DNA of 42,229 nt, taken from positions 1 through 42,229 of the IMG/VR virus record IMGVR_UViG_3300032093_000278. One strand, 5' to 3'. The position numbers and the translations under genes were made by a program. This document shows, piece by piece, positions 1-35,270 of the stretch. How positions within the stretch are numbered: the stretch's first letter is position 1; each line of letters opens with the position of its first letter. The DNA comes from a virus. Below the pieces are notes generated by a model. That model made no database searches and was not told the origin of the DNA. It was given only the letters and a program-made list of their open reading frames with translations.

Positions 1-439
1 CTTTGAGATCGGTCCCTTGCCGGTACCCCGCAAAGATTCGACCCCCCCCACCCTCAGCCGCACTGGCCGACACCCCGACGCCTCGGGCCGCGGCGGCCTC
101 GCGCGCGGTCTTGGCTCGGTGGCAGGCGCGCGAGATCGCCTGCAGGTTTGCCGGGTCGTCCGTCCCACCTAAATGCTTCGGCACTCGGTGGTCCACCTCT
201 TCGGCGCGGATGACTGCCCCAGTCGCCTGGCACTCGGCGCACCTGCAGATGCCGCCGTCGCGCCGCATCACCATCGCCCGCAGCTTGGCCCACTGCGCGC
301 CGTAGCCGCGCTCGTGGCGCGTGCCCCTACTGCGGTCTGCGAAGGCCCCGGCCTTGACCTTGTGCTCATCGCAGCGCGACGTGCCATCCACGACCAGCCG
401 GCGGCACACGCTGCAGGGCTTGGGTGCGATGGATGGCAT
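1..439 (-). CDS. HNH endonuclease, runs off the left edge
   Basis: Translating the minus strand from an ATG at 439 gives at least 146 residues with no stop before the window edge. Paired cysteines near the N-terminus (CSVC; CRCAEC) are followed by an EVDHRVPKHLGGTDDPANLQ stretch and a CHRAKTARE end, the His-Asn-His fold of phage HNH nucleases. Such nucleases lie directly before the small terminase gene in HK97-type phages and assist DNA cleavage during packaging at cos. If the window ends are joined, the frame continues 15 codons into the small terminase start without a stop. The C-terminal tail after about residue 120 is low-complexity and contains a run of eight G, so the true end is uncertain. 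The start has no clear ribosome-binding site. Confidence 0.85.
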   Translation of the reverse strand, partial: MPSIAPKPCSVCRRLVVDGTSRCDEHKVKAGAFADRSRGTRHERGYGAQWAKLRAMVMRRDGGICRCAECQATGAVIRAEEVDHRVPKHLGGTDDPANLQAISRACHRAKTAREAAAARGVGVSASAAEGGGGRIFAGYRQGTDLK

Positions 440-3237: not shown

Positions 3238-3550
3238 GGATCTCGTTCGCTCCTCGCGTGTCTGCCACCAAAAACCAGGGTTCACCACCCAGGGCCCCCC
3301 TTACCCCCCGTCAGCTTTTTTGACGTTGAGCAGGAGGACAATCACCACCCCCTTGCGGGCGCCCACCAGTGCCACCCTGTCCAGGTGCCACCCCTCGGCT
3401 GTGGGCTCGAGGCCGCCGGCGGATTGGCTACCGCTGGTGCTTGTTGACGGGGAGGCACGTACCCCCGGTGTTTCTTGCCCTGACGGCCCATGCAGGCCCA
3501 TACGTGTTGCGCGGGGCGGACGCTCCCAGCCTCAAGGTCCGTGTGGGCGC
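3238..3550. other. Stretch without a convincing gene
   Basis: Two overlapping minus-strand frames exist here: 3301-3501 (66 residues, ending LLLNVKKADGG) and 3342-3491 (49 residues, starting MGRQGKKHRGYVPP). Neither has a ribosome-binding site or a recognisable domain, and they exclude each other. A GTCA...TGAC inverted repeat lies near 3310-3325. The stretch borders the 10-bp repeats at 3551 and may hold origin or regulatory DNA. Confidence 0.35.
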
Positions 3551-3610
3551 CTCATTCCCGGCCTTTCCCAGCGATTCCCGGAGATTCCCGGAGATTCCCG
3601 GCGATTCCCA
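3551..3610. repeat. Six tandem 10-bp repeats, possible iterons
   Basis: Six consecutive 10-base units share TTCCC at the same place; the central units read GCGATTCCCG, GAGATTCCCG, GAGATTCCCG, GCGATTCCCA. They overlap the 3' end of the Arc-like gene. A 10-bp period is not a multiple of three, so the repeat is not kept for protein reasons; a period close to one DNA turn suggests phased protein-binding sites. The position beside the replication genes fits an origin or an operator for the Arc-like protein. Confidence 0.6.
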
Positions 3611-3788
3611 CACGCGCCGCAGCGGCAGTGATGACACTGGCGGCATGCACTCTTTTCTTCAGCTCCACCAGGATCAGCTGCTCGATCCACTCGCCGTCGC
3701 TGACGCCGTCCGCGTCCGCCACGGCGCGCATCAGGTCGTGCCAGGCCGGGTCCAGCCGTCCGCGGAAGTCTTTGCGCTCCAGACTCAT
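3552..3788 (-). CDS. Arc-like small phage protein
   Basis: The protein has 78 residues. It starts MSLERKDFRGRLDPAWHD, followed by a helical segment (MRAVADADGVSDGEWIEQLILVEL) and a basic end. The short strand followed by two helices resembles a ribbon-helix-helix (Arc/MetJ) fold, as in small DNA-binding phage regulators. AGGG lies about six bases before the ATG. The last 20 residues are encoded by the 10-bp repeat array, so that part is constrained by DNA function. Function is inferred from fold-like pattern only. Confidence 0.6.
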   Translation of the reverse strand: MSLERKDFRGRLDPAWHDLMRAVADADGVSDGEWIEQLILVELKKRVHAASVITAAAARVGIAGNLRESPGIAGKGRE

Positions 3789-3795
3789 GCGATGC

Positions 3796-3816
3796 CCTGC
3801 GCGTCAGCCGCGCAGG
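3796..3816. promoter_or_regulatory. Perfect inverted repeat upstream of Arc-like gene
   Basis: CCTGCGCG and CGCGCAGG are separated by five bases (TCAGC), just upstream of the minus-strand start at 3788. No T-run follows on either strand, so a terminator is unlikely. It could be an operator or an mRNA hairpin near the start. Confidence 0.35.
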
Positions 3817-4002
3817 CCGCTGTGGTTGGAAAGAACCCCGCCCAGGCAACCCAAGGCGCACGCAGCGCCGGCCGGGAGGAGGCAGCCCATCGAGGCCGCC
3901 CGGGCACCGCGTCGCCGCGGCCGGAGGGGGAAACTGGCGGTGGCCCTGCCCCAGGCTGCTACCGTGCGAATCCCACAACCCGCACGGCCAAGGAGGGCCA
4001 CC

Positions 4003-4218
4003 ATGGAACTGCGCCCACACACGCTGACGATCACGGCCACAAAGGAGCTGACGCTCCTGGTGCACATGCGCCAGCAGTTGGCCGAACACGAGTACCTGGA
4101 CATCCAGCTCGTGATCAGCCGAGACGACATGACTCTGGCGGGCGTACAGCGCGAGCTGCTGACCACTGCCATTCACCGAATGCAGAGCATGCTTGGACGG
4201 CTGTCGCCAGGCAGTTGA
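4003..4218 (+). CDS. Unknown 71-residue protein
   Basis: The frame starts at ATG 4003 after a full AAGGAGG ribosome-binding site six bases away. The product begins MELRPHTLTITATKEL and has a long helix (LLVHMRQQLAEHEY) and a second one near the C-terminus. It is small and acidic/helical with no recognised domain. It is the only plus-strand gene inside the leftward operon, and its last 104 bases overlap the end of the zinc-ribbon gene on the other strand. The strong ribosome-binding site is the main reason to keep it. Confidence 0.6.
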   Translation: MELRPHTLTITATKELTLLVHMRQQLAEHEYLDIQLVISRDDMTLAGVQRELLTTAIHRMQSMLGRLSPGS

Positions 4219-4357
4219 CGCACTGCATCACGGTGCGTTCATCCGAAAGCGTGGTGATGTCCGCAAAGCGGTCGCCAGAGCAGGTCGGGCAGATGTCTGG
4301 CCTGCCGACAAACGCCACAGGCTCCTCGTCCGGCTCCGCGACTGTCGAGTACCGCAT
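4115..4357 (-). CDS. Small zinc-ribbon protein
   Basis: The protein has 80 residues with two CxxC pairs (ICPTC at about 23-27, QCVNC at about 45-49) spaced as in a zinc ribbon. The start ATG at 4357 follows AAGGAG at about eight bases. It sits downstream of the Cro-like gene with a 33-base gap and is probably in the same leftward transcript. The C-terminal part overlaps the plus-strand gene at 4003-4218. The partner, DNA, RNA or protein, cannot be told from the sequence. Confidence 0.6.
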   Translation of the reverse strand: MRYSTVAEPDEEPVAFVGRPDICPTCSGDRFADITTLSDERTVMQCVNCLATAVQACSAFGEWQWSAARAVRPPESCRLG

Positions 4358-4390
4358 TGCTGATCTCCTTGATGCTCAATCGCTCGACGG

Positions 4391-4633
4391 TCACGCCGCC
4401 TGCTGCTCTTGGGTCGCGGGCTCGGCGGAGCCGATTCGGAAGTGGTCCAGCAGAGGCTGGATCGTCTGCACTCTCGGGTTCTCGCGGTCGCCGTAAGCGA
4501 TCTTGCGCATCAGGTGCACTGACACTTGATCCGTGTCCGGCCTTTCCGCATTGATGGCTTGCGCAATGGACGGCCACTCACCCGGGCCGGCAGAGCGCAG
4601 CGCAGCTTTGAGGCGGTCGATGATTGATTCCAT
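4391..4633 (-). CDS. Cro-like small regulator
   Basis: The protein has 80 residues. It begins MESIIDRLKAALRSAG and contains WPSIAQAINAE, then VSVHLMRKIAYGDRENPRVQTIQPLLDHF, a pattern I associate with small Cro-type helix-turn-helix proteins (recognition helix at about residues 36-45). It faces away from the Xre-type repressor at 4677 across a 43-base region holding palindromic operators. A promoter with -10 TAGCAT ending at 4640 would start RNA at or near the ATG at 4633. The gene lacks a ribosome-binding site, so the message may be leaderless. It heads the leftward replication/late operon. Confidence 0.7.
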   Translation of the reverse strand: MESIIDRLKAALRSAGPGEWPSIAQAINAERPDTDQVSVHLMRKIAYGDRENPRVQTIQPLLDHFRIGSAEPATQEQQAA

Positions 4634-4639
4634 GCGGTC

Positions 4640-4668
4640 ATGCTATCCCGATTTTGGGATAGCTGCAA
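4640..4668 (-). promoter_or_regulatory. Leftward promoter of the Cro-like gene
   Basis: On the minus strand TTGCAG and TAGCAT are 17 bases apart. The spacer is filled almost exactly by the palindrome at 4642-4663, so a bound repressor would block polymerase. The predicted RNA start coincides with the gene's first codon. Confidence 0.6.
4642..4663. promoter_or_regulatory. Repressor operator O1
   Basis: GCTATCCC and GGGATAGC form a perfect 8-base inverted repeat with a 6-base spacer (GATTTT). The same CCC-N6-GGG core occurs at 4670, 5031 and 5053. Confidence 0.75.
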
Positions 4669-4683
4669 GCCCATGTATGGGAC
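4669..4683. promoter_or_regulatory. Repressor operator O2 (overlaps repressor start)
   Basis: GCCC-ATGTAT-GGGAC has the same CCC-N6-GGG core with weaker flanks. It covers the start codon of the repressor gene at 4677, which suggests self-repression. Confidence 0.5.
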
Positions 4684-5024
4684 GCAACCACAGGCACGAT
4701 TTGTTCGTGCCGAAGACCATCATTGCCAACAACTTACGCCGCCTGATGGAGGCCAACCCAAAACTTGGCACGATCAAGAAGATCGTCGAAGCAGGCGGAG
4801 GGACCAATGGCACCGTTGGCCGAATGGTTAAAGGCTCGACCTCTTGTGGCGTAGATGCGCTCGCTCAAGTGTCCGCGGTCTTCGGCATGGAAGCCTGGCA
4901 ACTGCTTGTGCCAGAGCTTGACCCAGAGCATCCGCCGATGCTGGAGATGGACTCGCGCAGGGTGGACCTGCTGGCCGCGGAACTCGACAACATCGCCGAG
5001 CGAGTCAAGAACAGACGCCGCTGA
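4677..5024 (+). CDS. Short Xre-type phage repressor
   Basis: The protein has 115 residues. An N-terminal helix-turn-helix (about 18-75: NNLRRLMEANPKLGTIKKIVEAGG, then TVGRMVKGSTSCGVDALAQVSAVFGM) is followed by a short tail ending in a helical VDLLAAELDNIAERVKNRRR segment. This looks like a CI/C2-type repressor, but there is no LexA-like S24 peptidase domain, so self-cleavage after DNA damage is not expected. Operators with the CCC-N6-GGG core lie on both sides of the gene (4642, 4670, 5031, 5053). ATG 4677 is chosen because the frame upstream is not protein-like. A Cro function for this gene and CI for its neighbour cannot be excluded. Confidence 0.75.
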   Translation: MGRNHRHDLFVPKTIIANNLRRLMEANPKLGTIKKIVEAGGGTNGTVGRMVKGSTSCGVDALAQVSAVFGMEAWQLLVPELDPEHPPMLEMDSRRVDLLAAELDNIAERVKNRRR

Positions 5025-5028
5025 AGTC

Positions 5029-5072
5029 ATCCCAAAAAGGGGATTGACACGTCCCACGTTTGGGACGAAACT
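5029..5072 (+). promoter_or_regulatory. Rightward early promoter with operators O3 and O4
   Basis: TTGACA at 5044-5049 is a perfect -35; GAAACT at 5067-5072 is a weak -10 with 17-base spacing. Palindrome O3 (ATCCC-AAAAAG-GGGAT, 5029-5044) abuts the -35 and O4 (GTCCC-ACGTTT-GGGAC, 5051-5066) fills the spacer. Repressor binding would shut off the plus-strand early operon that starts at 5173. Confidence 0.65.
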
Positions 5073-5172
5073 GCACCCCATGCCCTGACGCACCCGCCAT
5101 CCCGGCGGCCGGACGGGGCGGGGGACTGCGGTGGCACAAGGACACGAAGGGCTCAGGCGCCGAAGCTCTGCA

Positions 5173-5358
5173 ATGAGCCCGGTCTGGCGCCACCTCGCTA
5201 TGGCCGTGGCCATGACTGCGGCATGCGCGGTGATCGTGCTGCTGGGCGGCTGTGGCGGTGGCGACTGCCCCGAGACGGAGCCGGGCTGCACGCAGGAGCC
5301 GCAGCGCGACGCGGCCAAGCCGCAGCCGCCGTGCACCGACCCGCGGAGGTGCATCTGA
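5173..5358 (+). CDS. Small predicted lipoprotein
   Basis: The protein has 61 residues. A hydrophobic signal (MAVAMTAACAVIVL) ends in the lipobox LLGGC, after which the chain is Cys/Pro-rich and acidic (GGDCPETEPGC). It should be processed by signal peptidase II and anchored in a membrane. First gene of the rightward early operon, about 100 bases after the promoter. A superinfection-exclusion role would fit a lipoprotein in an early operon but nothing in the sequence shows it. ATG 5173 is preferred over an upstream GTG frame extension because the signal peptide starts there. Confidence 0.6.
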   Translation: MSPVWRHLAMAVAMTAACAVIVLLGGCGGGDCPETEPGCTQEPQRDAAKPQPPCTDPRRCI

Positions 5359-5525
5359 TGATGAGCACCACCGACCGCGCCAACGCCATCCGCATGGCGC
5401 AGGCGACTGAGGCCGACCCGCGCCGCGAGCGCCGTGTCCCCGATCTGCTGCAGCGCTGGTCCTGGCCCGCCGCAGGCCTGTGCGCCTTTGCCTTCATCGG
5501 GTGGCTTGCCGCCCAGGCGGTGTGA
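5358..5525 (+). CDS. Small membrane protein, 55 residues
   Basis: The start ATG overlaps the lipoprotein stop (TGATG), showing coupling. The N-terminal 35 residues are charged; one membrane helix follows (WPAAGLCAFAFIGWLAA) at the C-terminus, typical of a C-tail-anchored small protein. No known family is recognised. Confidence 0.55.
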   Translation: MMSTTDRANAIRMAQATEADPRRERRVPDLLQRWSWPAAGLCAFAFIGWLAAQAV

Positions 5526-5527
5526 CC

Positions 5528-5734
5528 ATGCACATCCCCATCCTCGACGCCCGGCATTTGCCGCCGCGGCGCTGCTCGTCTGACGCCTGCGACGCCGGCC
5601 AGTGCCCCTGCCCTGAGGCCTGCGAGATCGCCGAGCGGCCGATGACGTCGCACGACGCGCGGAGGCTTCTCGTCCTGTGCTGCGCTGCCTGGGGCCTGCC
5701 GGCCGCGCTGGCGCTGCTGTGGTGGCTGGCATGA
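5528..5734 (+). CDS. Cys-rich small membrane protein, 68 residues
   Basis: The frame starts at ATG 5528, two bases after the previous stop. The N-terminal half has several cysteines (RRCSSDACDAGQCPCPEAC) that could bind metal; the C-terminus is a membrane helix (LLVLCCAAWGLPAALALLWWL). It overlaps the next gene by ATGA. No function is recognised. Confidence 0.55.
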   Translation: MHIPILDARHLPPRRCSSDACDAGQCPCPEACEIAERPMTSHDARRLLVLCCAAWGLPAALALLWWLA

Positions 5735-6015
5735 GCCCGCAGCCCACGACACCGTTGACGCCGTTGACGCGGCCCGACCTGTTCCAGCGCGCGCTGCGGC
5801 GCATCGACCGGGACAACCGCTTCGCGACCGTCGCGCAGGCCCTGGCCTGCCCGTACCGCGGCCCGTGCGTCCGCGCGCTGGCCCTGGCTCTGCTGCGCGA
5901 CGAGCAACAGGCCGAAGCCGCCCGCCGCAAGGCCACCGCGCGCCAGTTCGACGCCCGCCGCGCGGCCGCGAATGACTTTGACCACGACACCGACGACCAC
6001 CCCACCCATGTCTGA
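5731..6015 (+). CDS. Unknown 94-residue protein
   Basis: The frame starts at ATG 5731 in an ATGA overlap with the previous gene. The product is helical and basic (FQRALRRIDRDNRFATVAQALACPYRG), with a long Arg/Ala helix and an Asp/His-rich end. No domain is recognised. Its last codons overlap the start of the kinase gene. Confidence 0.55.
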   Translation: MSPQPTTPLTPLTRPDLFQRALRRIDRDNRFATVAQALACPYRGPCVRALALALLRDEQQAEAARRKATARQFDARRAAANDFDHDTDDHPTHV

Positions 6016-6715
6016 CACCGCACACCTCGTCGACGGCCCCTGCGCCGTCACCGCCATCGCAGCCGCGCATCAGGCGGTCGTCGTCCGCTTGACGCCCGCG
6101 CCGCCCATCATGCGCGAGCGGCTGCCCGCCGGCCACACCCTGGTCGGCCTGTGCGGCGCGGCCGGCTCGGGCAAGAGCACGGCCGGCGACATCCTGGTGG
6201 ACCGTCACGGGTTCACCAGTTGGGCCTTCGCCGAGCCGCTGCGCGACATGCTTAGCGCAGCTTTCGAGCCTGCAGGCATCGACCACCGCTGGCTCACAGA
6301 GCCGGGACTGAAGGAACAGCGCATCCCCGACATGGGCCCCAGCGGCCGGGAACTGATGCAGAGATTCGGCACTTGCGGCCGAGACATCGACCCATGCTTT
6401 TGGGTACGCCTGACCTCCATGGCGCTGGGCCTCAACGACCTGCCAGACAGCGCACCGGTTCACGACCGCATCGTCATCACCGACGTGCGCTACCCCGAAG
6501 AAGCAGCCTGGATCCAGGCCCTCGGTGGTCACGTCGTGCTGGTCGACCGCCCGCAGGCCGTACCCGTGCGCGCCCACGAAAGCGAGGCGCACTACCGCCG
6601 GCTCGGGCACACCGCCGTCATCGACAACAGCGGCGGCCTGGAGCAGCTGCACGCGCAGGTGTCGCAGGCGCTGCTGCACATCGACATGCTCGACGACCTG
6701 CCGCTGATGCCCTGA
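6008..6715 (+). CDS. Deoxynucleoside monophosphate kinase
   Basis: The protein has 235 residues. A P-loop GAAGSGKST (about 50-58) is followed by a FAEPLRDML stretch, a GRELMQRFGT motif with a nearby DPCFWV, and the IVITDVRYPEEA segment; this set marks the phage dNMP kinase family related to T4 gp1. It would phosphorylate dNMPs to dNDPs for phage DNA synthesis. ATG 6008 overlaps the end of the previous gene; an upstream ATG at 5972 would add only a Thr/Pro-rich stretch. The gene belongs to the rightward early operon. Confidence 0.8.
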   Translation: MSDTAHLVDGPCAVTAIAAAHQAVVVRLTPAPPIMRERLPAGHTLVGLCGAAGSGKSTAGDILVDRHGFTSWAFAEPLRDMLSAAFEPAGIDHRWLTEPGLKEQRIPDMGPSGRELMQRFGTCGRDIDPCFWVRLTSMALGLNDLPDSAPVHDRIVITDVRYPEEAAWIQALGGHVVLVDRPQAVPVRAHESEAHYRRLGHTAVIDNSGGLEQLHAQVSQALLHIDMLDDLPLMP

Positions 6716-6721
6716 CGCGCC

Positions 6722-7252
6722 ATGGGACGCACCGCAAAGCCCCGCCGCGCCTACAGGCCACGCCCCGTGATTGCCGACACCGTCGAGACCGCCATCGCCC
6801 GCGCCGGCCTGCTGCCCGAGTCGTCGCGCCAAGCGCTGCGCGCGCCGATCATCGCGGCACTGGACGGCCTGCGCACCGGCACCGGCCAATGGCCCGCCTG
6901 GCGCAGCATGGCCGATGCGCTGAACGTCGCCGAACAGCTGGCAGCGGACGGCATCGCCAGCAATCACGCCGGCACCATCGTCGCAGCCCAGTCCGTTCTG
7001 GCCGACCTGCATGCGCGCCTGGCCGAGGGTGCACCCTGGACGCTGCGCGCCGCCGAGCTCAAGGCGCTGCAGGACGGCGCCGAGATCGCCGAGATCCAGC
7101 TCGAGTACGCCAGCCAGGGCGAGGTCGCCGACGCCATCGAAAGCGTCAAGCGCCGCGTGGCCGGCGCACTGGCCGGCAGTGTCGGCGCAGACACCACCGT
7201 GTGCATTGGCGGCTTGGGCCGCGACCGCACGACCGTCGACGCCACCGCATGA
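6722..7252 (+). CDS. Unknown 176-residue early protein
   Basis: The product starts with a basic segment (MGRTAKPRRAYRPRPV) and is otherwise a predicted all-helical protein (AEQLAADGIASNHAGTIVA; ELKALQDGAEIAEIQLEYA). I recall similar proteins of unknown role in phages of this type. It starts six bases after the kinase gene and overlaps the next start (ATGA). Confidence 0.7.
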   Translation: MGRTAKPRRAYRPRPVIADTVETAIARAGLLPESSRQALRAPIIAALDGLRTGTGQWPAWRSMADALNVAEQLAADGIASNHAGTIVAAQSVLADLHARLAEGAPWTLRAAELKALQDGAEIAEIQLEYASQGEVADAIESVKRRVAGALAGSVGADTTVCIGGLGRDRTTVDATA

Positions 7253-7545
7253 CCACCGCCACCCGCCCGCCCGGCCGCGTCCAGGCCGCGATCCTGGGTC
7301 TGCTGCAGGACATGCAGCCCCGCAAGCCGCTCGAGGTCCAGCAGGCCTTGGGCATCACCAACACCAGTGCCGACAACGCCCTCAGAACCCTGGCCGCGTC
7401 CGGCTTGGTGCTCAGGCAGCCTGACGGCGCGTACATCAACCGCGGCGGCGATGTCGACCAGGCCCTGTGCCGCGCGGTCAGCGTGTGGGCGTATGCGGCG
7501 CGGCTGAAGACTCTTTCCACCCACCCAGCAAAGGTGACCACTTGA
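7249..7545 (+). CDS. Winged-helix DNA-binding protein
   Basis: The protein has 98 residues. Residues about 10-65 form a winged-helix pattern: VQAAILGLLQDM, KPLEVQQALGITNTSADNALRTLAASGLVLR, then GAYINRGG as the wing. It resembles small HTH proteins that bind DNA in phage early operons. Start and stop overlap both neighbours, so it is coupled to them. Target is unknown. Confidence 0.65.
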   Translation: MTTATRPPGRVQAAILGLLQDMQPRKPLEVQQALGITNTSADNALRTLAASGLVLRQPDGAYINRGGDVDQALCRAVSVWAYAARLKTLSTHPAKVTT

Positions 7546-7925
7546 ACCAGACCACACCCACCGGCACCACACACGCGGCGCCGGACACCACCCGCGCGGC
7601 CACCGACGTCGACGAGTTCATCAACGCGTTGGACGGCGGCATGGTGGCCCAGAAGCTGAGCGTCGCGCTTAGCAAGGCCGCGGCCGCTGCCATGGACCAC
7701 GACGAGAAGAGCGAGGTCACGATCAAGCTGACCTTCGAGCGCCTGTCGGGCACGTTCCAGTGCCGCGTCGAGCACGAGCTCAAGTTCCGCCAGCCCACGA
7801 TGGACGGCGAGACCAGCGAGAAAGAGAAGCGCGCCACCGTGCTGTGGGTTGGCCGGTATGGCCGCCTGAGCATGCTGCCGCCCGACGTCACCCGCGGCGG
7901 TCAAGCCACGCTGCCCAACACCTGA
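7542..7925 (+). CDS. Unknown 127-residue early protein
   Basis: The start is TTG 7542, in a TTGA overlap with the previous stop and preceded by AAAGG. The protein has a Thr-rich N-terminus, then an acidic helix (DVDEFINALDGGMVAQKL) and beta-rich sequence (SEVTIKLTFERLSGTFQCRVEHELKF). It sits directly before the DUF2303 gene, a common pairing by my recollection. Function is unknown. Confidence 0.65.
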   Translation: MNQTTPTGTTHAAPDTTRAATDVDEFINALDGGMVAQKLSVALSKAAAAAMDHDEKSEVTIKLTFERLSGTFQCRVEHELKFRQPTMDGETSEKEKRATVLWVGRYGRLSMLPPDVTRGGQATLPNT

Positions 7926-7940
7926 TCGCAGATCCCATCC

Positions 7941-8762
7941 ATGTTCACGCAAGACGCGATTCAAGAACTCGGCCGGCCTCAAGCCATCGCCGCCGCGCTG
8001 GCTGCGATCCTCCAGCACGCCGATCACGGCCTGGGCATCGTCGCACTGCCCGAAGAGTTCAAGGTCACCGACCTCGAACCCTACATGCCGGCCCGCCGGC
8101 GGCAGCGCGGCCAGATGGACACCCAGTCGCTCGGCGACTTTGCCACCTACGTCGACAACCAAGCCGATGAAGGCGCCAGCGTCTTCGTCAACGCCGCGGC
8201 CATGAAGGCCACCGCAGTCCTGAACCTCGGCATTCCCGGACAACCGGGCCACTGCGACCACATCGCCAGCTACTCGCCGCCCGCCACAGCAGCCTACAGA
8301 GCGCTGCGCGAAATCGCCTCCGGCCAGCACCCGCAGGCCCGCATCGCCGAGTTCCTCGAGGACTGGCTCGACCACATCAGCGCCGAACGCGATGGCCAGG
8401 CGATCGACGCCAAGAAGGCCATCGCATCGATCCGCCGCATCACCATCGAAGCACTCCGCAAGCAGGAGACGACTTCCGAGCAGCTGCGCGCCGAGCAAAG
8501 CACCTTCGAAAGCATCACCGCCTCCAGCCGCGACCTGACCCTGCCGTCGTTCATCAACTTCCGCTGCGTGCCGTACCTGGAGATGCAGGAGCGCACCTTC
8601 CGCATGCGCCTGGGCCTGATCACCAGCGACAAGCCCGCGCTGACGCTGCGCGTCGCGAGCTTTGAGCTGCACATCGAGCAGATGGGCGAGGAGCTTTGCC
8701 AGCGCGTCCGCGACGCCGTTGCAGACCTGCCGGTGATTGCCGGCAGCTTCAGCCCGCGCTGA
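7941..8762 (+). CDS. DUF2303 family protein
   Basis: The protein has 273 residues and matches the DUF2303 (YfdQ-like) phage family: LEPYMPARRRQRG near residue 50, DFATYVDNQADEGASVFVN, DHIASYSPPATAAYRALRE and a C-terminal FRMRLGLITSDKPALTLRV. These proteins occur in early regions of temperate phages and have no established biochemical role. Length is normal for the family. The gene is not overlapped by the next one, leaving a 28-base gap. Confidence 0.85.
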   Translation: MFTQDAIQELGRPQAIAAALAAILQHADHGLGIVALPEEFKVTDLEPYMPARRRQRGQMDTQSLGDFATYVDNQADEGASVFVNAAAMKATAVLNLGIPGQPGHCDHIASYSPPATAAYRALREIASGQHPQARIAEFLEDWLDHISAERDGQAIDAKKAIASIRRITIEALRKQETTSEQLRAEQSTFESITASSRDLTLPSFINFRCVPYLEMQERTFRMRLGLITSDKPALTLRVASFELHIEQMGEELCQRVRDAVADLPVIAGSFSPR

Positions 8763-8790
8763 GCACGAAGCGCAAGGACATGGCGTCGTG

Positions 8791-9705
8791 ATGGACTGCA
8801 TCGATCTCTTCGCCGGGGCCGGCGGCTTCAGCACCGGCGCCGCGATGGCCGGCGCCCGCGTGCTGTGGGCTGCCAACCACTGGCCCGCGGCGGTGCACTG
8901 GCACGCCGCAAACCACCCGGCCACCGTGCACGCCTGCCAGGACCTGCAGCAAGCCGACTTCCACGACGCGCCGGCCCACGACCTGCTGCTGGCCAGCCCC
9001 GCTTGCCAGGGCCACAGCCGGGCCCGTGGCGCCGACAAGCCGCACCACGATGCTCAGCGCGCTACAGCCTGGGCCGTCGTCGCCTGCGCGGAGGTGCACC
9101 GGCCCTTTGTGGTTGTGGTCGAGAACGTCGCCGAGTTCGCGTCCTGGACGCTCTACCCGGCCTGGTGCGCCGCGATGCACGCCCTGGGCTACGCTTTGGC
9201 GCCGCTGGTGCTGGACACAGCCGACCACGGCGTTCCGCAGCACCGCCGCCGGCTGTTCATCGTGGCCACCCGCAGCAAGCATCCGGTCGACTTGCGGCTG
9301 CCGCGTCGAGCACATGCCTCCGCGTCCAAAGTCCTGGATTTCAGCGCAGGCCGGTGGTCAGCCATCGACAAGCCGGGCCGCAGCGCCAAGACTCTGGCCC
9401 GCATCGCCGCCGGGCGCCAGCGCTTCGGCGCGCGCTTCGTGGCGCCGTTCTACGGCTCAGGCTCTGGCGAGACCGGCCGCAGCCTGGAGAGGCCCATCGG
9501 CACCTTGACCACGAAGGCTCGCTGGGCGCTGATCGACGGCGCCCGCATGCGCATGGTGCTGGCCAGCGAGGGGCGCGAGCTCATGGGCTTTCCGGCGGAC
9601 TACAAGCTGCCGGCGAGCGAGCCGCAGGCGTGGCACCTGTTAGGGAATGCCGTGTCGCCTGTGGTGGCTTGCGACCTGATCGAGGCGCTGAGGGCCGCCG
9701 CATGA
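8791..9705 (+). CDS. DNA cytosine-5 methyltransferase
   Basis: The protein has 304 residues. Motif I DLFAGAGGFSTG (5-16) binds S-adenosylmethionine; motif IV SPACQG holds the catalytic Cys (about 72) with PAC instead of the usual PPC; motif VI ENV (about 111-113); motif VIII QHRRRLFIV; and motif X GNAVSPVVA. The variable region is short, about 80 residues, so the recognition site is likely short. It would methylate cytosine in phage DNA, probably protecting it from host restriction. No partner endonuclease is visible, so it acts alone. ATG 8791 is chosen as the codon just before motif I. Confidence 0.9.
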   Translation: MDCIDLFAGAGGFSTGAAMAGARVLWAANHWPAAVHWHAANHPATVHACQDLQQADFHDAPAHDLLLASPACQGHSRARGADKPHHDAQRATAWAVVACAEVHRPFVVVVENVAEFASWTLYPAWCAAMHALGYALAPLVLDTADHGVPQHRRRLFIVATRSKHPVDLRLPRRAHASASKVLDFSAGRWSAIDKPGRSAKTLARIAAGRQRFGARFVAPFYGSGSGETGRSLERPIGTLTTKARWALIDGARMRMVLASEGRELMGFPADYKLPASEPQAWHLLGNAVSPVVACDLIEALRAAA

Positions 9706-10106
9706 ATCGCGCCAACCCGACCGCCGCCACAGCAGCCGCGACTCCATGGGACTGCCTCCTGCGCCAGCCGCCGCAGCGCATGGCCCCGCGCGTCGACCCC
9801 GACCAGCAGATGGCTCAGCCCGGCACGAAGCTGGCCAGGCTGCTGGCGGTCCTGGCCGAGCGCGGCAGCTGCACGACGCTGACGCTGTCGGCCTGCACCG
9901 ACCTCGAGTCTCGCCAGGTCTGGGGCCTGCTGAAAGCACCGCGCGCCATCGGGCAGGTGGAGTTCGTCGATGGCCGCTGGCAGCTGGTGCACGGATTCGC
10001 CGGCCGCGACGTTGAGCGCGCCGCTGCTCTGCTGCGCGATCTGGGGTGGCGGGTGCTGCGGCCGAGCGTTGGGGGTAAGGCGGACCAAATGGCCGCGCAG
10101 GCTTGA
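9702..10106 (+). CDS. Small winged-helix-like protein
   Basis: The protein has 134 residues and starts in an ATGA overlap with the methyltransferase. Residues about 40-100 (TKLARLLAVLAERGSCTTLTLSAC, SRQVWGLLKAPRAIGQVEFVDGRWQLV) suggest a winged helix. It is the last gene before the integron and marks the left phage flank. Function is unknown; DNA binding is inferred. Confidence 0.65.
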   Translation: MNRANPTAATAAATPWDCLLRQPPQRMAPRVDPDQQMAQPGTKLARLLAVLAERGSCTTLTLSACTDLESRQVWGLLKAPRAIGQVEFVDGRWQLVHGFAGRDVERAAALLRDLGWRVLRPSVGGKADQMAAQA

Positions 10107-10123
10107 GAAGATGCGACGGTGCG

Positions 10124-10167
10124 GCAGGCCGTATGGTGGCGCCGCTTGAGCTACCAATTCGGCCTGC
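10124..10167 (-). repeat. Degenerate terminal attC (attC0)
   Basis: The ends GCAGGCCG and CGGCCTGC are inverted repeats. On the minus strand the R'' box reads GCCGAAT and is preceded by GCAG, matching the other end of the unit (after 10402). The opposite R' box has lost GTT (ACGGCC). It probably no longer recombines and would fix the left end of the array to the phage genome. Confidence 0.45.
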
Positions 10168-10183
10168 GGGCCAAGGAGAAAAC

Positions 10184-10397
10184 CATGAACGACGAAGAGC
10201 AGCGGGAATTGGTAACCGCCGTGGAAAAGCAGATTGCGTTTTTGCTGGCTGACCTGGAGAAGCGCACCGGCTGTTACGTGGACGGCCTGGCACTGAGAAA
10301 CACAGAGGTCACAAGGGTGTCCAGCTCGGAGCCCGAATACCTTCGGCGCGTGGAGGTTGACTTGCGCCGCCAGCCCGGTTCGCGCTGGCAGACGTGA
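10184..10397 (+). CDS. Cassette gene, unknown 70-residue protein
   Basis: The start is ATG 10184, seven bases after AAGGAG; an upstream GTG at 10119 would run through attC0 and is not favoured. The product is short and acidic (MNDEEQRELVTAVEKQIAFLL), with a central ADLEKRTGCYVDGLAL segment. The stop is five bases before attC1. I recognise no family. It is the outermost unit, bounded by attC0 and attC1. Confidence 0.6.
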
Positions 10398-10401
10398 GCA
10401 G

Positions 10402-10490
10402 GCCCAACGCGGAGTTCAGCGGCCCGCCTGCGCCGCTGGTGGAAGGCGCGGACCTGCCGTAGGCGGGTCCGCTGCAACGCACAGTTGGGC
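10402..10490 (-). repeat. attC1 recombination site
   Basis: Boxes GCCCAAC (10402-10408) and GTTGGGC (10484-10490) bracket an imperfect palindrome; inner arms CAGCGG and CCGCTG pair. On the minus strand the first arm has two extra bases (G and A), and the crossover box reads CGTTGGGC, so polarity is minus. Confidence 0.85.
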
Positions 10491-10518
10491 GGCTGCCGCC
10501 CGTAGCGAAGGAATGGCG

Positions 10519-10932
10519 ATGGCACTTGAAGAGATGAAGACGATGGCCGACGCGCTGCGTTGGGCACTGCGGCGGATTGACACTGCCGGGTTGGGCTGCG
10601 GCGAATACTTTGACCGCGCTGAAGCGCTGCTCAACACCGCGCCGGACGTTCCGACACAGGTGTACAGCTACTGGCCGGACGGCAGCCGCCAGTACATGGA
10701 GCTGGACCATTGGCCACAACGCTCCGAGCTGCCTGCGGCTGCCGTGAGCTTTGAAATGGCCGTGCCTGACCCGTCGGTTCCAGTGCCGCGACCCAACACC
10801 GAAGCCGCAGCCCTGGCGGCGGCGAAGGCCGAGAACATTCGGCTGCAGCAGCGCGTGGAGTGGCTGGAGAGACTGCATCTGTACCGCGAAGACGGCCACT
10901 CGGACGTGCATGACGGCATGGCCCGCCCTTGA
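10519..10932 (+). CDS. Cassette gene, unknown 137-residue protein
   Basis: ATG 10519 is chosen because AAGGA then sits six bases upstream; an ATG at 10513 would be too close. The protein is helical at the N-terminus (EEMKTMADALRWALRRIDTAG) and ends with a coiled-coil-like helix (AEAAALAAAKAENIRLQQRVEWLERLH is its approximate span, about residues 95-120). A middle YSYWPDGSRQYMELDHW segment is aromatic. The stop is one base before attC2. No family is recognised. Confidence 0.65.
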   Translation: MALEEMKTMADALRWALRRIDTAGLGCGEYFDRAEALLNTAPDVPTQVYSYWPDGSRQYMELDHWPQRSELPAAAVSFEMAVPDPSVPVPRPNTEAAALAAAKAENIRLQQRVEWLERLHLYREDGHSDVHDGMARP

Positions 10933-10933
10933 C

Positions 10934-11012
10934 GCCCAACGTTCGAGGTAACGCGGGCTAAACGGCCCGCACGAAAGGTGACTATGACCACAGAAGTAGC
11001 AGGCCGTTTGGC
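10934..11012 (-). repeat. Weak attC2 site
   Basis: The crossover box CGTTGGGC is clear on the minus strand (10941-10934). The partner box is probably GCCAAAC (11012-11006), preceded by GAGG as the other unit end predicts. The arms pair poorly; a small GCGGGC/GCCCGC hairpin sits inside (10953-10970). The next gene's first codons overlap its right end, so this site may be inactive and its two flanking units may move together. Confidence 0.55.
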
Positions 11013-11358
11013 CTCGCCGTTGACCGAGGGGTTGGGCCTCAACGCCACAGAACGAGCCGCGTTTGAAGCGTGGGCCTCCAAGAAGTGGGGAAGCGAAGCC
11101 TACCGACACACCAGCGAAACAAGCGGGGAGTGGGAAGCATGGCAGGCCGCCCGCGTTGACCTGCTGGCCGCGCTTCAGTGGTACGCAGATGGCCTGCACT
11201 TCGACAAGGCCAGCCCGGATGCCTGGGACACCGTGAGCGGAGAGCCTCAGAACTGGTGGTGTGACGAGGCCGGAACTGCGACCGTTGAAGACGGTTCTAT
11301 TGCGGCGATGACGCTGCGCGGCGAACTCACGGCCGCCCAGATTCGGGCGCTGGATTGA
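10984..11358 (+). CDS. Cassette gene, unknown 124-residue protein
   Basis: ATG 10984 follows AAAGG at about six bases; GTG 10978 is an alternative. The protein has an FEAWASKKWGSEAYRHTSETSGEWEAW-like region near residues 28-54, split here as FEAWASKKWGSEAY and EWEAWQAARVDLL, then an acidic middle. Short proteins with FEAW...W..WQ..R are common in phages as small unknowns. The start lies inside attC2 and the stop two bases before attC3. Confidence 0.65.
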   Translation: MTTEVAGRLASPLTEGLGLNATERAAFEAWASKKWGSEAYRHTSETSGEWEAWQAARVDLLAALQWYADGLHFDKASPDAWDTVSGEPQNWWCDEAGTATVEDGSIAAMTLRGELTAAQIRALD

Positions 11359-11359
11359 G

Positions 11360-11417
11360 GCCCAACGGGCCGGTTCAGGGGCCGCCGTAGGCGGTCCCTT
11401 GGAACCGGGTGTTAGGC
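11360..11417 (-). repeat. attC3 recombination site
   Basis: Boxes GCCCAAC (11360-11366) and GTTAGGC (11411-11417) enclose arms with CCGGTTC/GAACCGG and GCCGCC/GGCGG pairing around a three-base loop. The minus-strand first arm is two bases longer; the R' box reads CGTTGGGC on that strand. Compact 58-bp site. Confidence 0.9.
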
Positions 11418-11451
11418 GGCTGGTGGACGAAGCAAAGAAAGGATGAGTGCA

Positions 11452-11679
11452 ATGGACACGGTACAAATCATGACGCTGGCGAAACTGGCCGGACATTGGC
11501 AGGCTGAAGCTGATAGCGGAGCCGGCAGCCAAGATCGGCGCACCGCACTGCGCGAGTGCGCCGACACCTTGCGCATGCTGTGTGAGGTGCGGTTCGAGGA
11601 CTGCCCGCATGCGGCGCCGCATCGCTACTGCGCCGAGTGCCCAGTGAAACCCTGTCCGATTGGCTTGGGGCAGCGCTGA
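11452..11679 (+). CDS. Cassette gene, small Cys-rich protein (75 residues)
   Basis: ATG 11452 has AAAGG about eight bases upstream; ATG 11443 is less well placed. The N-terminal half is helical (IMTLAKLAGHWQAEAD), the C-terminal half has cysteines (CADTLRMLCEVRFEDCPH, YCAECPVKPC) that could bind zinc. It overlaps the next gene by TGATG, so both are made together. It shares one cassette with that gene. No family recognised. Confidence 0.6.
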   Translation: MDTVQIMTLAKLAGHWQAEADSGAGSQDRRTALRECADTLRMLCEVRFEDCPHAAPHRYCAECPVKPCPIGLGQR

Positions 11680-11930
11680 TGGCATGCACACACACGCGAT
11701 GGGTCTACGACCCGCCCTACGAGGACGACTGGACGGGCGAGTGGATCACGCCGGAGCCCCGCGAGGTTGGCACGTCCGTGGACATCGACACCGGCCGCTT
11801 CCGCTGCACCCAGTGTGGCGAGGTCGGCTACTACACGGGCCTGTGGCGCGACTTTCACGAAAGGGGCATCCCGTGCCCGGGTTCGGATGGGGTGCGCCGC
11901 GGGCCGCCTAACGTGGAGGTAAGCGGGTGA
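11679..11930 (+). CDS. Cassette gene, zinc-ribbon-like protein (83 residues)
   Basis: The start ATG 11679 overlaps the previous stop. The N-terminus reads MACTHTRWVYDPPYEDDW; residues 50-58 hold FRCTQCGEV, a CxxC knuckle, and another Cys follows near 75. With the N-terminal Cys/His it could form one zinc site. Related small proteins with CTHTRW...RCTQCGE occur in phages by my recollection. Its last eight codons lie inside attC4 and its stop overlaps the next start (GTGA). Confidence 0.65.
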   Translation: MACTHTRWVYDPPYEDDWTGEWITPEPREVGTSVDIDTGRFRCTQCGEVGYYTGLWRDFHERGIPCPGSDGVRRGPPNVEVSG

Positions 11931-12731: not shown

Positions 12732-12758
12732 GCAGTCCGCTTGAATTGCGTGTTCGGC
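12701..12758 (-). repeat. attC6 recombination site
   Basis: GCACAAC (12701-12707) and GTTCGGC (12752-12758) enclose arms AATT..AAGCGG..CTGCC and GGCAG..CCGCTT..AATT. On the minus strand the first arm has extra C and A; the crossover box reads CGTTGTGC. Best-formed site of the array, 58 bp, belonging to the helicase-methyltransferase cassette. Confidence 0.9.
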
Positions 12759-12782
12759 TTCACTGGTGGCGCACAACGACTG

Positions 12783-14189
12783 ATGACTATGAACTACGAC
12801 GACTACGTACAAACGAAACTCTCTCGCGTGCCACCGACCGGCATACCGCACGGCGCCTACATGCCAGATCACGGCCTGTTCCCGCATCAATGCGCGCTGG
12901 TGTCGTGGGCGTGCAAGCGTGGACGCGCCGCGATCTTTGCAGACACCGGGCTAGGCAAGAGCCGCATGCAACTAGCGTGGGCTGAGGCCGTGCGGCTGCA
13001 CACTGGCCGCCCCGTGCTGATTCTTGCCCCGCTGGCCGTGGCACCGCAGACGGTGGCCGAGGGCGCCGAGATTGGCGTGAGCGTGCTGCACTGCCGCGAT
13101 GGCAGCGACTATGACCCGAGCGAAGGCGCGCGGATCTGCATCACGAACTATGACCGCCTGCATCGGTTTGATTGCTCGATCTTCGGGGCCGTGGTGCTGG
13201 ACGAGTCGAGCTGCATCAAGCACCACGACGCCAAGACGCTGCGCACGTTGCTGACTGCGTTTCGGGATACGCCTTTCAAGCTGTGCGCCACCGCCACGCC
13301 AGCGCCGAACGACTGGACCGAGCTAGGCACCCATGCCGAGTTCCTGGGCGTTTGCACGCGCGCCGAGATGCTGGCGGAGTACTTCACGCACGACGGCGGA
13401 GACACCAGCGTATGGCGCCTCAAGGGCCACGCGCGGCACATTTTCTGGCAGTGGGTGAGCCAGTGGGGCGCGATGGTGCGCCGGCCGTCTGATCTTGGTT
13501 TCGATGACTCTGCCTACGCGCTGCCGCCGTTGCATTTGCACGAGCACACCGTCGAGACTGAAATGCCGCTGAACGGGATGCTGTTCGCCGCCGAGGCGCA
13601 GACGTTGAGCGAGCGCCGAGACGCGCGCCGCATGTCAACAGCTGACCGCGTCCGCGACTGCGCCGCGATTGTGAACAGCGAGGCGGCCGAGCCGTGGGTG
13701 GTGTGGTGCGACCTGAACGCCGAAGGCGATGCACTCACCAAGGCCATCAATGGTGCGGTGCAGATTGCTGGCGCCGACAGTACGGAAGTGAAGGAACAAC
13801 GCCTGGCCGACTTTGCGGCTGGCCGGTTCCGCGTGCTGGTGAGCAAGCCGAGCATCTGCGGCTTTGGCTTGAACTGGCAGCACTCGGCGCGCATGGCCTT
13901 CGTGGGCGTGACTGACAGCTTCGAGGCCTATTACCAGGCCGTGCGACGGTGCTGGCGCTTCGGGCAGCGGCGTGATGTGCATGTGCATGTCTTTGCTTCA
14001 TCGTCCGAGGGCGCGGTGGTGGCGAACCTGAAGCGCAAGGAACGTGACGCCACCAAGATGGCCGAGAGCCTGAGCCAGGAAACCAGAGATGCCGTGATGC
14101 AGGAAGTGACAGGCACTACGCGGCAAACCAATATCCACAACGCAAGCCAGCGCGTGACCGTGCCGGCATTCTTGAAAGTAGCAGCATGA
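12783..14189 (+). CDS. SNF2/DEAD-type helicase in a cassette
   Basis: The protein has 468 residues. Motif I FADTGLGKSRMQ (about 53-63), motif II VVLDESSCIK (about 138-146), motif III TATPAPND and motif VI YYQAVRRCWRFGQRRDVHVHVF are all present, making an active superfamily 2 ATPase of the phage SNF2-like type. Proteins of this kind lie beside methyltransferases in many phages and may act in replication or DNA remodelling. It overlaps the methyltransferase start by ATGA. Together they occupy the cassette next to attI. No ribosome-binding site is visible before ATG 12783 or 12789. Confidence 0.85.
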   Translation: MTMNYDDYVQTKLSRVPPTGIPHGAYMPDHGLFPHQCALVSWACKRGRAAIFADTGLGKSRMQLAWAEAVRLHTGRPVLILAPLAVAPQTVAEGAEIGVSVLHCRDGSDYDPSEGARICITNYDRLHRFDCSIFGAVVLDESSCIKHHDAKTLRTLLTAFRDTPFKLCATATPAPNDWTELGTHAEFLGVCTRAEMLAEYFTHDGGDTSVWRLKGHARHIFWQWVSQWGAMVRRPSDLGFDDSAYALPPLHLHEHTVETEMPLNGMLFAAEAQTLSERRDARRMSTADRVRDCAAIVNSEAAEPWVVWCDLNAEGDALTKAINGAVQIAGADSTEVKEQRLADFAAGRFRVLVSKPSICGFGLNWQHSARMAFVGVTDSFEAYYQAVRRCWRFGQRRDVHVHVFASSSEGAVVANLKRKERDATKMAESLSQETRDAVMQEVTGTTRQTNIHNASQRVTVPAFLKVAA

Positions 14190-15058
14190 ATTGCATCGAC
14201 CAGATCGTGACCGACCGCTACGCCGCATATCACGGCGACTGCGTGGAAGTGTTGAAGGGCCTGCCGGCCGCAAGCATCGGCTATTCGATCTTCTCGCCAC
14301 CGTTCGCCAGCCTCTACACCTACAGCAACAGCCCGCGCGACATGGGCAACGTGCGCGACGATGCCGAGTTCTTCGAGCATCTGGACTTTCTCATCGCCGA
14401 GCTGCGGCGCGTGATGAAGCCCGGCAGAAACATCAGCTTTCACTGCATGGACATGCCCAGCAGCAAAGAGCGCGACGGCGTGATCGGCTTGAAGGACTTT
14501 CCCGGCGATCTGCTGCGGGCGTTCCAGCGTCATGGATTCATCTTCCATGCCAAGGTGACGATCTGGAAAGACCCGGTGACCGCGATGCAGCGCACCAAGG
14601 CGCTGGGCCTGCTGCACAAGAGCGTGCGCGAAAACTCTGCGATGTGCAGGATGGGCATTCCTGACTACCTCATCACGGTGCGCAACCCAGGCGAGCAAGA
14701 AGACCGCGTGACGCACGGCGCCGAGTTCCCTGTGGACTTGTGGCAGAAGGTGGCGAGCCCGGTATGGATGGACATCAACCCGAGCGACACTTTGCAATTC
14801 CGCAGCGCGCGTGAGCACGACGACGAGCGCCACATCTGCCCGCTTCAGCTTGACGTGATCCGGCGTGGCGTGATGCTTTGGACGAACCCGGGCGACATTG
14901 TGCTGTCGCCATTCATGGGCATTGGCAGCGAGGGCTATGTGGCGCTGGAAATGGGCCGGCGCTTTGTCGGCGCCGAACTGAAAGCCAGCTACTACGCGCA
15001 GGCTGCGGCCAATCTTGCGGCCGCCACCGCAAAGACCGAAGACCTCTTCGCTGCTTGA
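14186..15058 (+). CDS. Site-specific DNA methyltransferase (N6-A or N4-C)
   Basis: The protein has 290 residues. The catalytic motif IV is FSPPF (36-40) near the N-terminus and the S-adenosylmethionine motif I is SPFMGIGSEGYVALEMGRRFVGAEL near residues 240-265 (here given as FMGIGS and VGAEL), the beta-class order. SPPF points to N4-cytosine or N6-adenine methylation. The middle region probably reads the target sequence. It is translated with the helicase (ATGA overlap) and no endonuclease accompanies it, suggesting self-protection of phage DNA. Its stop lies 18 bases before the attI box. Confidence 0.85.
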   Translation: MNCIDQIVTDRYAAYHGDCVEVLKGLPAASIGYSIFSPPFASLYTYSNSPRDMGNVRDDAEFFEHLDFLIAELRRVMKPGRNISFHCMDMPSSKERDGVIGLKDFPGDLLRAFQRHGFIFHAKVTIWKDPVTAMQRTKALGLLHKSVRENSAMCRMGIPDYLITVRNPGEQEDRVTHGAEFPVDLWQKVASPVWMDINPSDTLQFRSAREHDDERHICPLQLDVIRRGVMLWTNPGDIVLSPFMGIGSEGYVALEMGRRFVGAELKASYYAQAAANLAAATAKTEDLFAA

Positions 15059-15076
15059 GCGCGGGGTATTAGTGAA

Positions 15077-15114
15077 GCCGAACTTGAATTCGACCGCGAA
15101 ACCTGCGGCGTAAC
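15077..15114 (-). other. attI-like integron insertion site
   Basis: On the minus strand a GTTACGC box (15114-15108) is followed 24 bases later by the crossover box GTTCGGC (15083-15077). Class 1 attI, as I remember it, has GTTACGC followed by a similar distance and GTTAGGC. The bases after GTTACGC (CGCAGG) also resemble attI1. The site lies 46 bases upstream of intI, in the expected place and orientation. The 12 bases from 15071 to 15082 are the inverted match of 12753-12764, the far end of the adjacent cassette. Confidence 0.7.
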
Positions 15115-15128
15115 ACCGGCAGCACCCC

Positions 15129-16217
15129 ATGCCCACCTCGGAAGCGAACGTTACGCGCCGCAGCGCGCCGCTACTGCGCGAGGCGCCGGCACGCACCCAG
15201 TCGCCGGCTCCTCAGCGCGAGCTCGGCGGCATCGCTCCTGGCCAGCCGGGCTACCTGCACCAGCAGGTCATCGCCGCGATCCGCGTGCGGCACTACAGCC
15301 GCTGCACCGAGCAGGCCTACTGGCGCTGGGCGGCCCAGTTTGTGCGCTGGGCAGGCAAGCGCCACCCGGCGGAGATGGGCGCCGCAGAGATCCAGCAGTT
15401 CCTCAGCTATCTGGCCACCGATCGCGACGTCTCGGCCAGCACGCAGCGCCAGGCGCTGGCGGCGCTCCTCTTCCTGTACCAGAAGGTGCTGGAGATCGAC
15501 CTGCCTTTCATCGACGGCATCGTGCGCGCCAAGCAGCCGCAACGCCTGCCGGTCGTGCTGACGCGGGACGAGGTCGCGCGCCTGTGGCAGCAGATCCCCG
15601 ATGCCTGCCCGCGAGGCCTGGTGCTGCGCCTGATGTACGGCACGGGCCTGCGGCTGATGGAAGCGCTAAGGATCCGAGTTCACGACGTCGACTTCGCGAC
15701 CGGCAGCATCACCGTGCGCGGAGGCAAGGGGGACAAGGACCGCACCGTCATGCTGCCGCGGACCCTTGATGCGCAGCTCCGCGAGACCCTGCGCCAGCGC
15801 GAGGCTTGGCACGTCATCGACCAGGCCACCGGCCACGCCGACGTGGAGCTGCCGCACGCGCTGCATCGCAAGTACCCACAGGCCCCGAGGCAGCTGGGCT
15901 GGCAGTTCCTGTTCTCGACGCCGGCTTACTGCACCTGCCCCAGGACCGGCGCGATCCGCAGGCATCACCTGCACGAGGACGGCATCCAGCGCTTGATGGC
16001 CCGGGCGGTGGCCAAGGCCCGCATCGGCAAGCGCGCGACGCCGCACACGCTGCGCCACAGCTTCGCGACGCACCTGCTGCAGGCCGGCTATGACATCCGA
16101 AGCATCCAAACCCTGCTGGGCCATGCCGACGTCGAGACGACCATGATCTACACCCACGTCCTGCCGGCCAGCCAGGGCGGCCGCGGCGTGGTCAGCCCGC
16201 TGGACGCACTCCCATGA
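15129..16217 (+). CDS. intI: Integron integrase
   Basis: The protein has 362 residues, a tyrosine recombinase. Catalytic residues are visible: R175 (GTGLR), K200, H306 and R309 (TPHTLRHSF), H332 (LLGHADV) and Y341 (IYTHV). The extra segment that separates IntI from XerC/XerD is present (ADVELPHALHRKYPQ, then RRHHLHEDGIQRLM, about 237-290), and the C-terminus ends SPLDALP as in IntI1. The N-terminus is about 25-35 residues longer than IntI1. It would insert and excise cassettes at attI and attC. The stop overlaps the next start (ATGA). No LexA box or clear ribosome-binding site is seen, so transcription may come from upstream. Confidence 0.95.
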   Translation: MPTSEANVTRRSAPLLREAPARTQSPAPQRELGGIAPGQPGYLHQQVIAAIRVRHYSRCTEQAYWRWAAQFVRWAGKRHPAEMGAAEIQQFLSYLATDRDVSASTQRQALAALLFLYQKVLEIDLPFIDGIVRAKQPQRLPVVLTRDEVARLWQQIPDACPRGLVLRLMYGTGLRLMEALRIRVHDVDFATGSITVRGGKGDKDRTVMLPRTLDAQLRETLRQREAWHVIDQATGHADVELPHALHRKYPQAPRQLGWQFLFSTPAYCTCPRTGAIRRHHLHEDGIQRLMARAVAKARIGKRATPHTLRHSFATHLLQAGYDIRSIQTLLGHADVETTMIYTHVLPASQGGRGVVSPLDALP

Positions 16218-28768: not shown

Positions 28769-29376
28769 TCAGGCCATGCCGTTGTGCTGCGGTGGGCGGT
28801 GGTTTCGGATCACGCCGAGGCGGCGCACCAGCCCATCGACATCGCACACGCCGAGCAGCGCCACGACGACATCGAGCCCGGCCCACTCGATGCCGCCCTG
28901 GCCGTTGGCCAGCAGCCTCCAGGCCGCGAATGCAATGAACTCATCTTGGTTGGCTTGCGCGGTTTCGCCCCTGATCTGGACACCGGGCGCGGCGGCATCC
29001 AGCAGGGCCGTCAGTTTTTTGCGGCTTCCTCGGTGCGCTTGAGGTGCGCTGAGATTTGCTCGGCGATGGCTTCTGCGATCTTGCGGACCATCGCCACGTG
29101 ATCGCGCACCCACGCGGCCCAGAGTTCGGGGTCGAACGGCACCGAGTCACTCGCGCCAATGGCCGGGCCGAGAAGATCGGCCTCGGTGAAGCCGCGCCAG
29201 TCCTCCACGTACTCGCACACGTGGTCGACCGTGACGCCGGCCGTGAAGCGGTGCAGCTCCGCCTCCAGCGGGCGCCGAAAGCACACCTCTTGCGCCGGGT
29301 TCTCGCCGACAGCCGGCCGCAGCTCCACCCAGTGGCGGCGCTGCTCGCGGAGCTGCTTGAGCACCAGACTGGTCAC
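28769..29376 (-). CDS. Tail assembly chaperone, long frameshifted product
   Basis: The short frame (29376-29011) ends 29011 with a TGA just after the slippery heptamer A-AAA-AAC. A -1 shift continues into a second frame (LTALLDAAAPGVQ to the stop at 28769) of about 80 residues. This matches the gpG/gpGT system of lambda, in which the long product helps tail-tube protein assemble on the tape measure. The position between tail tube and tape measure genes is the standard one. Confidence 0.8.
29011..29376 (-). CDS. Tail assembly chaperone, short product
   Basis: The protein has 121 residues. The GTG start at 29376 overlaps the tail tube stop (GTGA). It begins VTSLVLKQLREQRRHWVELR, has FRRPLEAELHRF and ends LKRTEEAAKN at the slippery site. 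It corresponds to gpG. It is made in most translation rounds, with the long form from frameshifting. Confidence 0.8.
   Translation of the reverse strand: MTSLVLKQLREQRRHWVELRPAVGENPAQEVCFRRPLEAELHRFTAGVTVDHVCEYVEDWRGFTEADLLGPAIGASDSVPFDPELWAAWVRDHVAMVRKIAEAIAEQISAHLKRTEEAAKN
29014..29020 (-). promoter_or_regulatory. -1 frameshift slippery site A-AAA-AAC
   Basis: On the minus strand the heptamer AAAAAAC sits in the correct phase of the upstream frame (GCA AAA AAC TGA), directly before its stop. The -1 frame opens into the second chaperone part. Confidence 0.85.
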
Positions 29377-30023: not shown

Positions 30024-30083
30024 TTCTGGCTCCTTTCAGTGCTGAGATGACCGGCCGCGGGGCCGGCAGTTGCCGGAAACAAC

Positions 30084-30106
30084 AAGGCCCGCACGCGGCG
30101 GGCCTT
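30084..30106 (-). terminator. Rho-independent terminator before the tail tube gene
   Basis: A perfect nine-base hairpin (AAGGCCCGC / GCGGGCCTT, loop of five) is followed on the minus strand by TTGTTGTTT. It lies between the connector gene ending at 30131 and the tail tube gene. Confidence 0.85.
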
Positions 30107-30130
30107 GGACGTGACGGGTGGCGTGTGGAC

Positions 30131-30493
30131 TCAGGCCCACCACTCCACCGTGAGCTGCTCGCCGTCGAGACCAGCCTCGGAATCGAACGCAGTGGTGCGG
30201 TCGGTGACCGCCACCCCACGAGCGACAGGCGCCGTCGCCAGCGCCGCGGCGACCTGATCCGCCACCTGCGTGGCTTGCGTTGCGGTGCGCGCCCAGCACT
30301 GGATCGAAAGCGTCGCCGCATCGGCGATCACCTGGCCCAGCAGGTTGAGCGTGTAGTCGTGCCGCGCCGACAAGACGACGAACGGCGGCTCGTCGTCGGC
30401 CAGCGTTGCGTTCTGCGCGATGCGGTCGGCCACCAAAGCGGCCAGGCCAGCGTGCGCCCGCAGCAGGGCGATGCAGTCCGACTCGGCGCTCAT
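30131..30493 (-). CDS. Tail completion protein (DUF3168 type)
   Basis: The protein has 120 residues: DCIALLRAHAGLAALVADRIAQN, then PPFVVLSARHDYTLNLLG and a long helix, ending DGEQLTVEWWA. The pattern matches DUF3168 (lambda gpU-like tail terminator), which caps the tail tube and joins it to the head. It overlaps its neighbour by four bases. Length is normal. Confidence 0.8.
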   Translation of the reverse strand: MSAESDCIALLRAHAGLAALVADRIAQNATLADDEPPFVVLSARHDYTLNLLGQVIADAATLSIQCWARTATQATQVADQVAAALATAPVARGVAVTDRTTAFDSEAGLDGEQLTVEWWA

Positions 30494-31876: not shown

Positions 31877-31898
31877 CGGATAGGACCTGGTGTTCTGG

Positions 31899-35269: not shown

Positions 35270-35270
35270 G

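Follow-up and report, generated by a model that had tools for sequence, protein, structure and literature searches.

The stretch of DNA analysed here (the window; 42,229 nt, an IMG/VR record classed as linear) very probably represents the virion chromosome, linear and bounded by a cos site, of a tailed phage of the HK97 type that is probably temperate, with the HNH endonuclease and the small terminase (TerS) being separate proteins. Judged from the sequence comparisons, the window begins and ends at genuine ends of virion DNA, in a cos located between the HNH gene and terS. We found the place where the ends join, a superfluous base at the join, homologous contig ends in relatives and a conserved site. 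The suggestion in the preliminary description that the genome is complete, and either circular or cos-ended, was thus supported and could be narrowed to a cos-ended genome of the HK97 type. The material for comparison consisted of IMG/VR contigs and the phages HK97 and D3; at the nucleotide level, the phages collection yielded zero matches to the window.

The genes around the join are the following.

1 to 439 and past the join, minus strand: HNH endonuclease gene (ATG at 439, TGA at 42184-42182; PF01844, E 2.8e-10)
42182 to 42228, minus strand: putative tail, the last part (3' end) of the HNH frame, past the join, with the TGA at 42184-42182 overlapping the GTG of terS
41625 to 42185, minus strand: small terminase gene, terS (GTG at 42185; Terminase_4, PF05119, E 7.3e-22)
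39902 to 41617, minus strand: large terminase gene, terL (PF03354 and PF20441)

The assignments made earlier for HNH (PF01844) and for the small terminase (Terminase_4, PF05119) hold. In the window the HNH nuclease gene stands directly before terS and terL, with the cos in between, and TerL is a two-domain protein, with the ATPase and the nuclease domain recognized through PF03354 and PF20441.

The most direct evidence on the join comes from two contigs of other metagenome assemblies, L064 (3300028430) and L027 (3300005525). On both sides of the join they are 93-95% identical to the window, and they cross it uninterrupted, as ...GGGACCGATCTCAAAGCCGGATTTTC..., which shows independently of the window record that its two ends meet. 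Both contigs have a single G at the join, whereas the window record has two when joined end to end. It follows from the single G in L064 and L027 that base 1 and base 42229 are one and the same, and that the genome, when closed, is a circle of 42,228 bp. The genome length of 42,229 bp given in the preliminary description counts the duplicated terminal base.

The same base decides how the reading frames are to be understood. Reading the minus strand, one finds the HNH frame open as far as base 2 and that of terS open from 42227 onward, and translation of the record joined as printed yields one open frame of 347 amino acids. The in-frame join described earlier was nevertheless not confirmed: the spanning relatives have one base fewer, located at the join and not in a G run. 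With only one G there, HNH is 161 amino acids long and stops at the TGA overlapping the GTG of terS, so the 347-residue HNH-TerS fusion vanishes. The HNH gene has the same structure in L064 and L027; the overlap with terS reads GTGA in the window and ATGA in the two relatives, and at the homologous place in relatives the terS start is ATG. Openness of the frame is weak evidence by itself, because about 11% of shuffles give an open in-frame join. About 120 distinct natural HNH-terS junctions were compared, zero of them with a fused HNH-TerS frame, and the only fused frame among all the junctions examined was the raw end-to-end join of the window.

The preliminary description offered two explanations for the open frame, a fused protein of about 350 residues and an error in one of two eight-G runs. 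The first has in its favor the 347 open codons of the joined record, but it needs the duplicated terminal base, and not one of the natural junctions retrieved shows the fusion; in the 93-95% identical relatives, which have one base fewer at the join, the genes are separate. We consider a single HNH-TerS protein in this phage very unlikely. The second explanation accepts that the ends meet and places the superfluous base in a homopolymer, a kind of sequence that is prone to errors. As stated earlier, taking one G out of the HNH-side run likewise brings back a TGA that overlaps the terS GTG, and this was confirmed by translation. However, both runs are eight G long in L064 and L027, as is the downstream run in L065-L068, the base absent from the spanning relatives sits at the join, and a shift would alter HNH from the G run to the join, a part that as it stands matches L064 exactly. 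We therefore find a G-run error hardly credible. The preliminary description was correct in suspecting a superfluous base and in predicting that HNH ends at a TGA overlapping the terS start; the base is the terminal one, and not a member of a G run.

The positions of physical ends were compared across relatives with a common numbering of the site. It was derived from 55 distinct natural junctions with the core AC|CG(N8)|N3 followed by A/T-rich sequence, in which +1 is the base after the ten; contig ends played no role in the choice of the 55 junctions, and the ends of other contigs were placed by a position matrix built from them. No site was found when viral contigs were scanned with a degenerate cos pattern. 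In the window the site consists of the following features.

42229: +1 base, the terS-side physical end (L065-L068 end exactly here; 13 of 22 distinct ends of relatives at +1)
1: extra copy of the +1 base (= base 42229; a single G in L064 and L027)
2 to 11, minus strand: cosN, the predicted 10-nt 3' overhang CGATCTCAAA (-10 to -1; five ends at -11, 13 contigs beginning at +1)
2 to 52, minus strand: HNH-side half (-1 to -51) of a stretch without mismatch to L064
42187 to 42229, minus strand: terS-side half (+1 to +43) of the same stretch, also relative to L064
42 to 49, minus strand: upstream eight-G run of the cos region (eight G also in L064 and L027)
42193 to 42200, minus strand: downstream eight-G run of the cos region (eight G also in L064, L027 and L065-L068)

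On the terS side, 13 of the 22 distinct and confidently placed ends were at +1, the remainder being distributed over eight other positions. The terminal terS-side base of the window is the exact end of four further contigs (L065-L068, from assemblies 3300031951, 3300028430, 3300027816 and 3300031787), thus the DNA ends are fixed and unique, with the window and four contigs sharing one base and the majority of the placed ends at +1. On the HNH side, position -11 is the end in five lineages (L032, L177, L175, G001 and G002). The matrix scores of L175 and L177 were weak, and these two were placed at -11 through their shared ...GAC end. G001 (42,325 bp; L115) and G002 (41,210 bp; L100) are complete-looking linear contigs; like the window, they have the HNH-cos-terS layout and a terS-side end at +1, but their HNH-side end is at -11, as expected for a trimmed overhang, whereas that of the window is at +1.

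It could be argued that the window ends where it does simply because G-rich sequence is hard to assemble, and there are indeed G runs on both flanks of the site. However, a single base between the G runs, and not the runs themselves, is where contigs from many lineages end, and L064 and L027 were assembled through the site. We rejected a random assembly break on these grounds and regard its probability as negligible.

The gap of exactly ten bases between the ends of the relatives fits the removal of a 10-nt 3' overhang, and we interpret it as the trace of such an overhang, trimmed from ...GAC^CGATCTCAAA^GCC.... According to the authors of PhageTerm, 3' overhangs are removed and 5' overhangs filled by end-repair enzymes, and assemblers should then put the DNA ends at the contig limits (PMC5557969). 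The overhang of about 10 nt is seen in the ends of relatives, at +1 and -11. The window itself does not display a trimmed overhang: its HNH-side end, at +1 instead of -11, retains one base more than the ten. For the clade of the window, the two spanning contigs were all that a search for further HNH-side ends turned up, the collection containing no other such end of this close clade. Reads crossing the site, originating from uncut or annealed DNA, together with imperfect assembly at the edge could have produced the HNH-side end of the window; PMC5557969 mentions reads that cross cos as well as cohesive ends that are repaired inefficiently. A weak rival to this explanation is that the cut in the clade of the window leaves a 1-nt 5' overhang, and that both filled-in ends carry the +1 base. 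It would account directly for the single duplicated base, 5' overhangs being filled by end repair (PMC5557969), but it conflicts with the relatives, five of which lack exactly ten bases between -11 and +1, as fits a 3' overhang. Moreover, the overhang of HK97, at the homologous bases, is a 3' one, and the ten bases lie inside the perfectly conserved stretch. We find a 1-nt 5' overhang improbable and prefer the 10-nt 3' overhang.

The sequence around the cut also points to a packaging site. Over 94 nt, from -51 to +43, the window shows no mismatch to L064, against differences of about 10% in the flanks. This conservation is best explained, we infer, if the DNA is constrained by its role as a packaging site. 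A run of at least four G was present upstream in 53 and downstream in 42 of the 55 site sequences. The two eight-G runs noted earlier do exist in the window, at 42-49 and 42193-42200 rather than at 45-55 and 42191-42200. Because they recur in close relatives and lie within the 94-nt mismatch-free stretch, they are probably elements of the site and not errors.

It is instructive to compare the window with HK97, which has the same arrangement, the HNH gene (gp74) at one end and terS-terL (gp1 and gp2) at the other. The HK97 record ends with ...GACCGCCGCCAAA and GTTTGAATTT, bases homologous to the cut in the window; the homologue of the window's cosN, CGATCTCAAA, is CGCCGCCAAA, with which one end of that record is formed, and in HK97, as in the window, a G run upstream is followed by ATCAAATCT. 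The HK97 cos has 10-nt 3' overhangs (PMC9410871, figure legend; PMC11331095); one sentence in the discussion of PMC9410871 gives 12 nt. It is cleaved by TerL, with stimulation by the HNH protein gp74, and TerS binds next to the cut (PMC9410871, PMC11331095). The two phages also differ: there is no close sequence identity between them, the terS-side half of the HK97 site is without a G run and scored poorly with the matrix, and gp74 stops well before the cut (at 39413 of 39732), whereas the HNH frame of the window passes it. Pseudomonas phage D3 resembles the window in having the HNH gene at the end of the record and terS at the start, and a G-rich stretch followed by GGAC...CGCGCCCCCA upstream of the cut, but its terS is distant and the core sequence is different.

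Some other records deserve a comment. Those of SfV (U82619) and Marinobacter AS1 (MK088078), with record ends L073-L076, were opened at other points of the site than that of HK97. The SfV and Marinobacter AS1 records for this reason say nothing firm on the ends, and the true cut may lie some bases away from where they place it. Contig L134 of IMG/VR starts (positions 1-11) with ATAAGAGACAG, which corresponds to the end of the Nextera transposon adapter, so this contig probably carries adapter sequence.

By analogy with HK97, TerS would mark cos on the concatemer during packaging, and TerL, probably helped by HNH, would make a staggered cut, ...GGGAC^CGATCTCAAA^GCCGGATTTT..., leaving 10-nt 3' overhangs, which after injection would anneal to give the 42,228-bp circle. 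HNH and TerS are very probably two proteins, their frames sharing GTGA at the terS start. For this phage, the identity of the cutting enzymes and the length and polarity of the overhang are those predicted from HK97. The gene content of the window, with portal, major head, tape-measure, tail-fibre and endolysin genes, an integrase and a DnaB-like helicase, is consistent with a complete temperate phage. Genes for a helicase-like protein (12741-14189), a methyltransferase (14186-15058) and an integrase (15129-16217) stand together on the plus strand (12741-16217). In two regions, 3490-11691 and 29011-35404, several of the long open frames tested were without a PHROGs match, and some of these could be spurious frames in GC-rich DNA.

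The HNH frame ends before the cut in most relatives. It passes the cut and stops near the terS start in the window clade and in L084, L088, L089, L090, L033, L161 and L165. It is possible, but on present evidence doubtful, that in the clade of the window the cos lies inside the translated 3' end of HNH, and that packaging splits the gene in each virion for as long as the ends are apart; the frame of the HNH tail could also stay similar through nothing more than conservation of the cos DNA. If the tail is translated, the C-terminus of HNH would be encoded across the very site that is thought to be cut with the help of HNH.

The cos site described here is an ordinary one: the packaging site of the HK97 type was already known, and this phage is another case of it. 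A literature search on cos ends appearing as the ends of metagenome contigs found nothing. Since the same base recurs as an end across many lineages, the ends of public metagenome contigs can be used to locate cos cuts and overhangs without reads. For the phage itself, the results fix the true ends, the length and the gene boundaries of the genome, and remove a false fusion gene.
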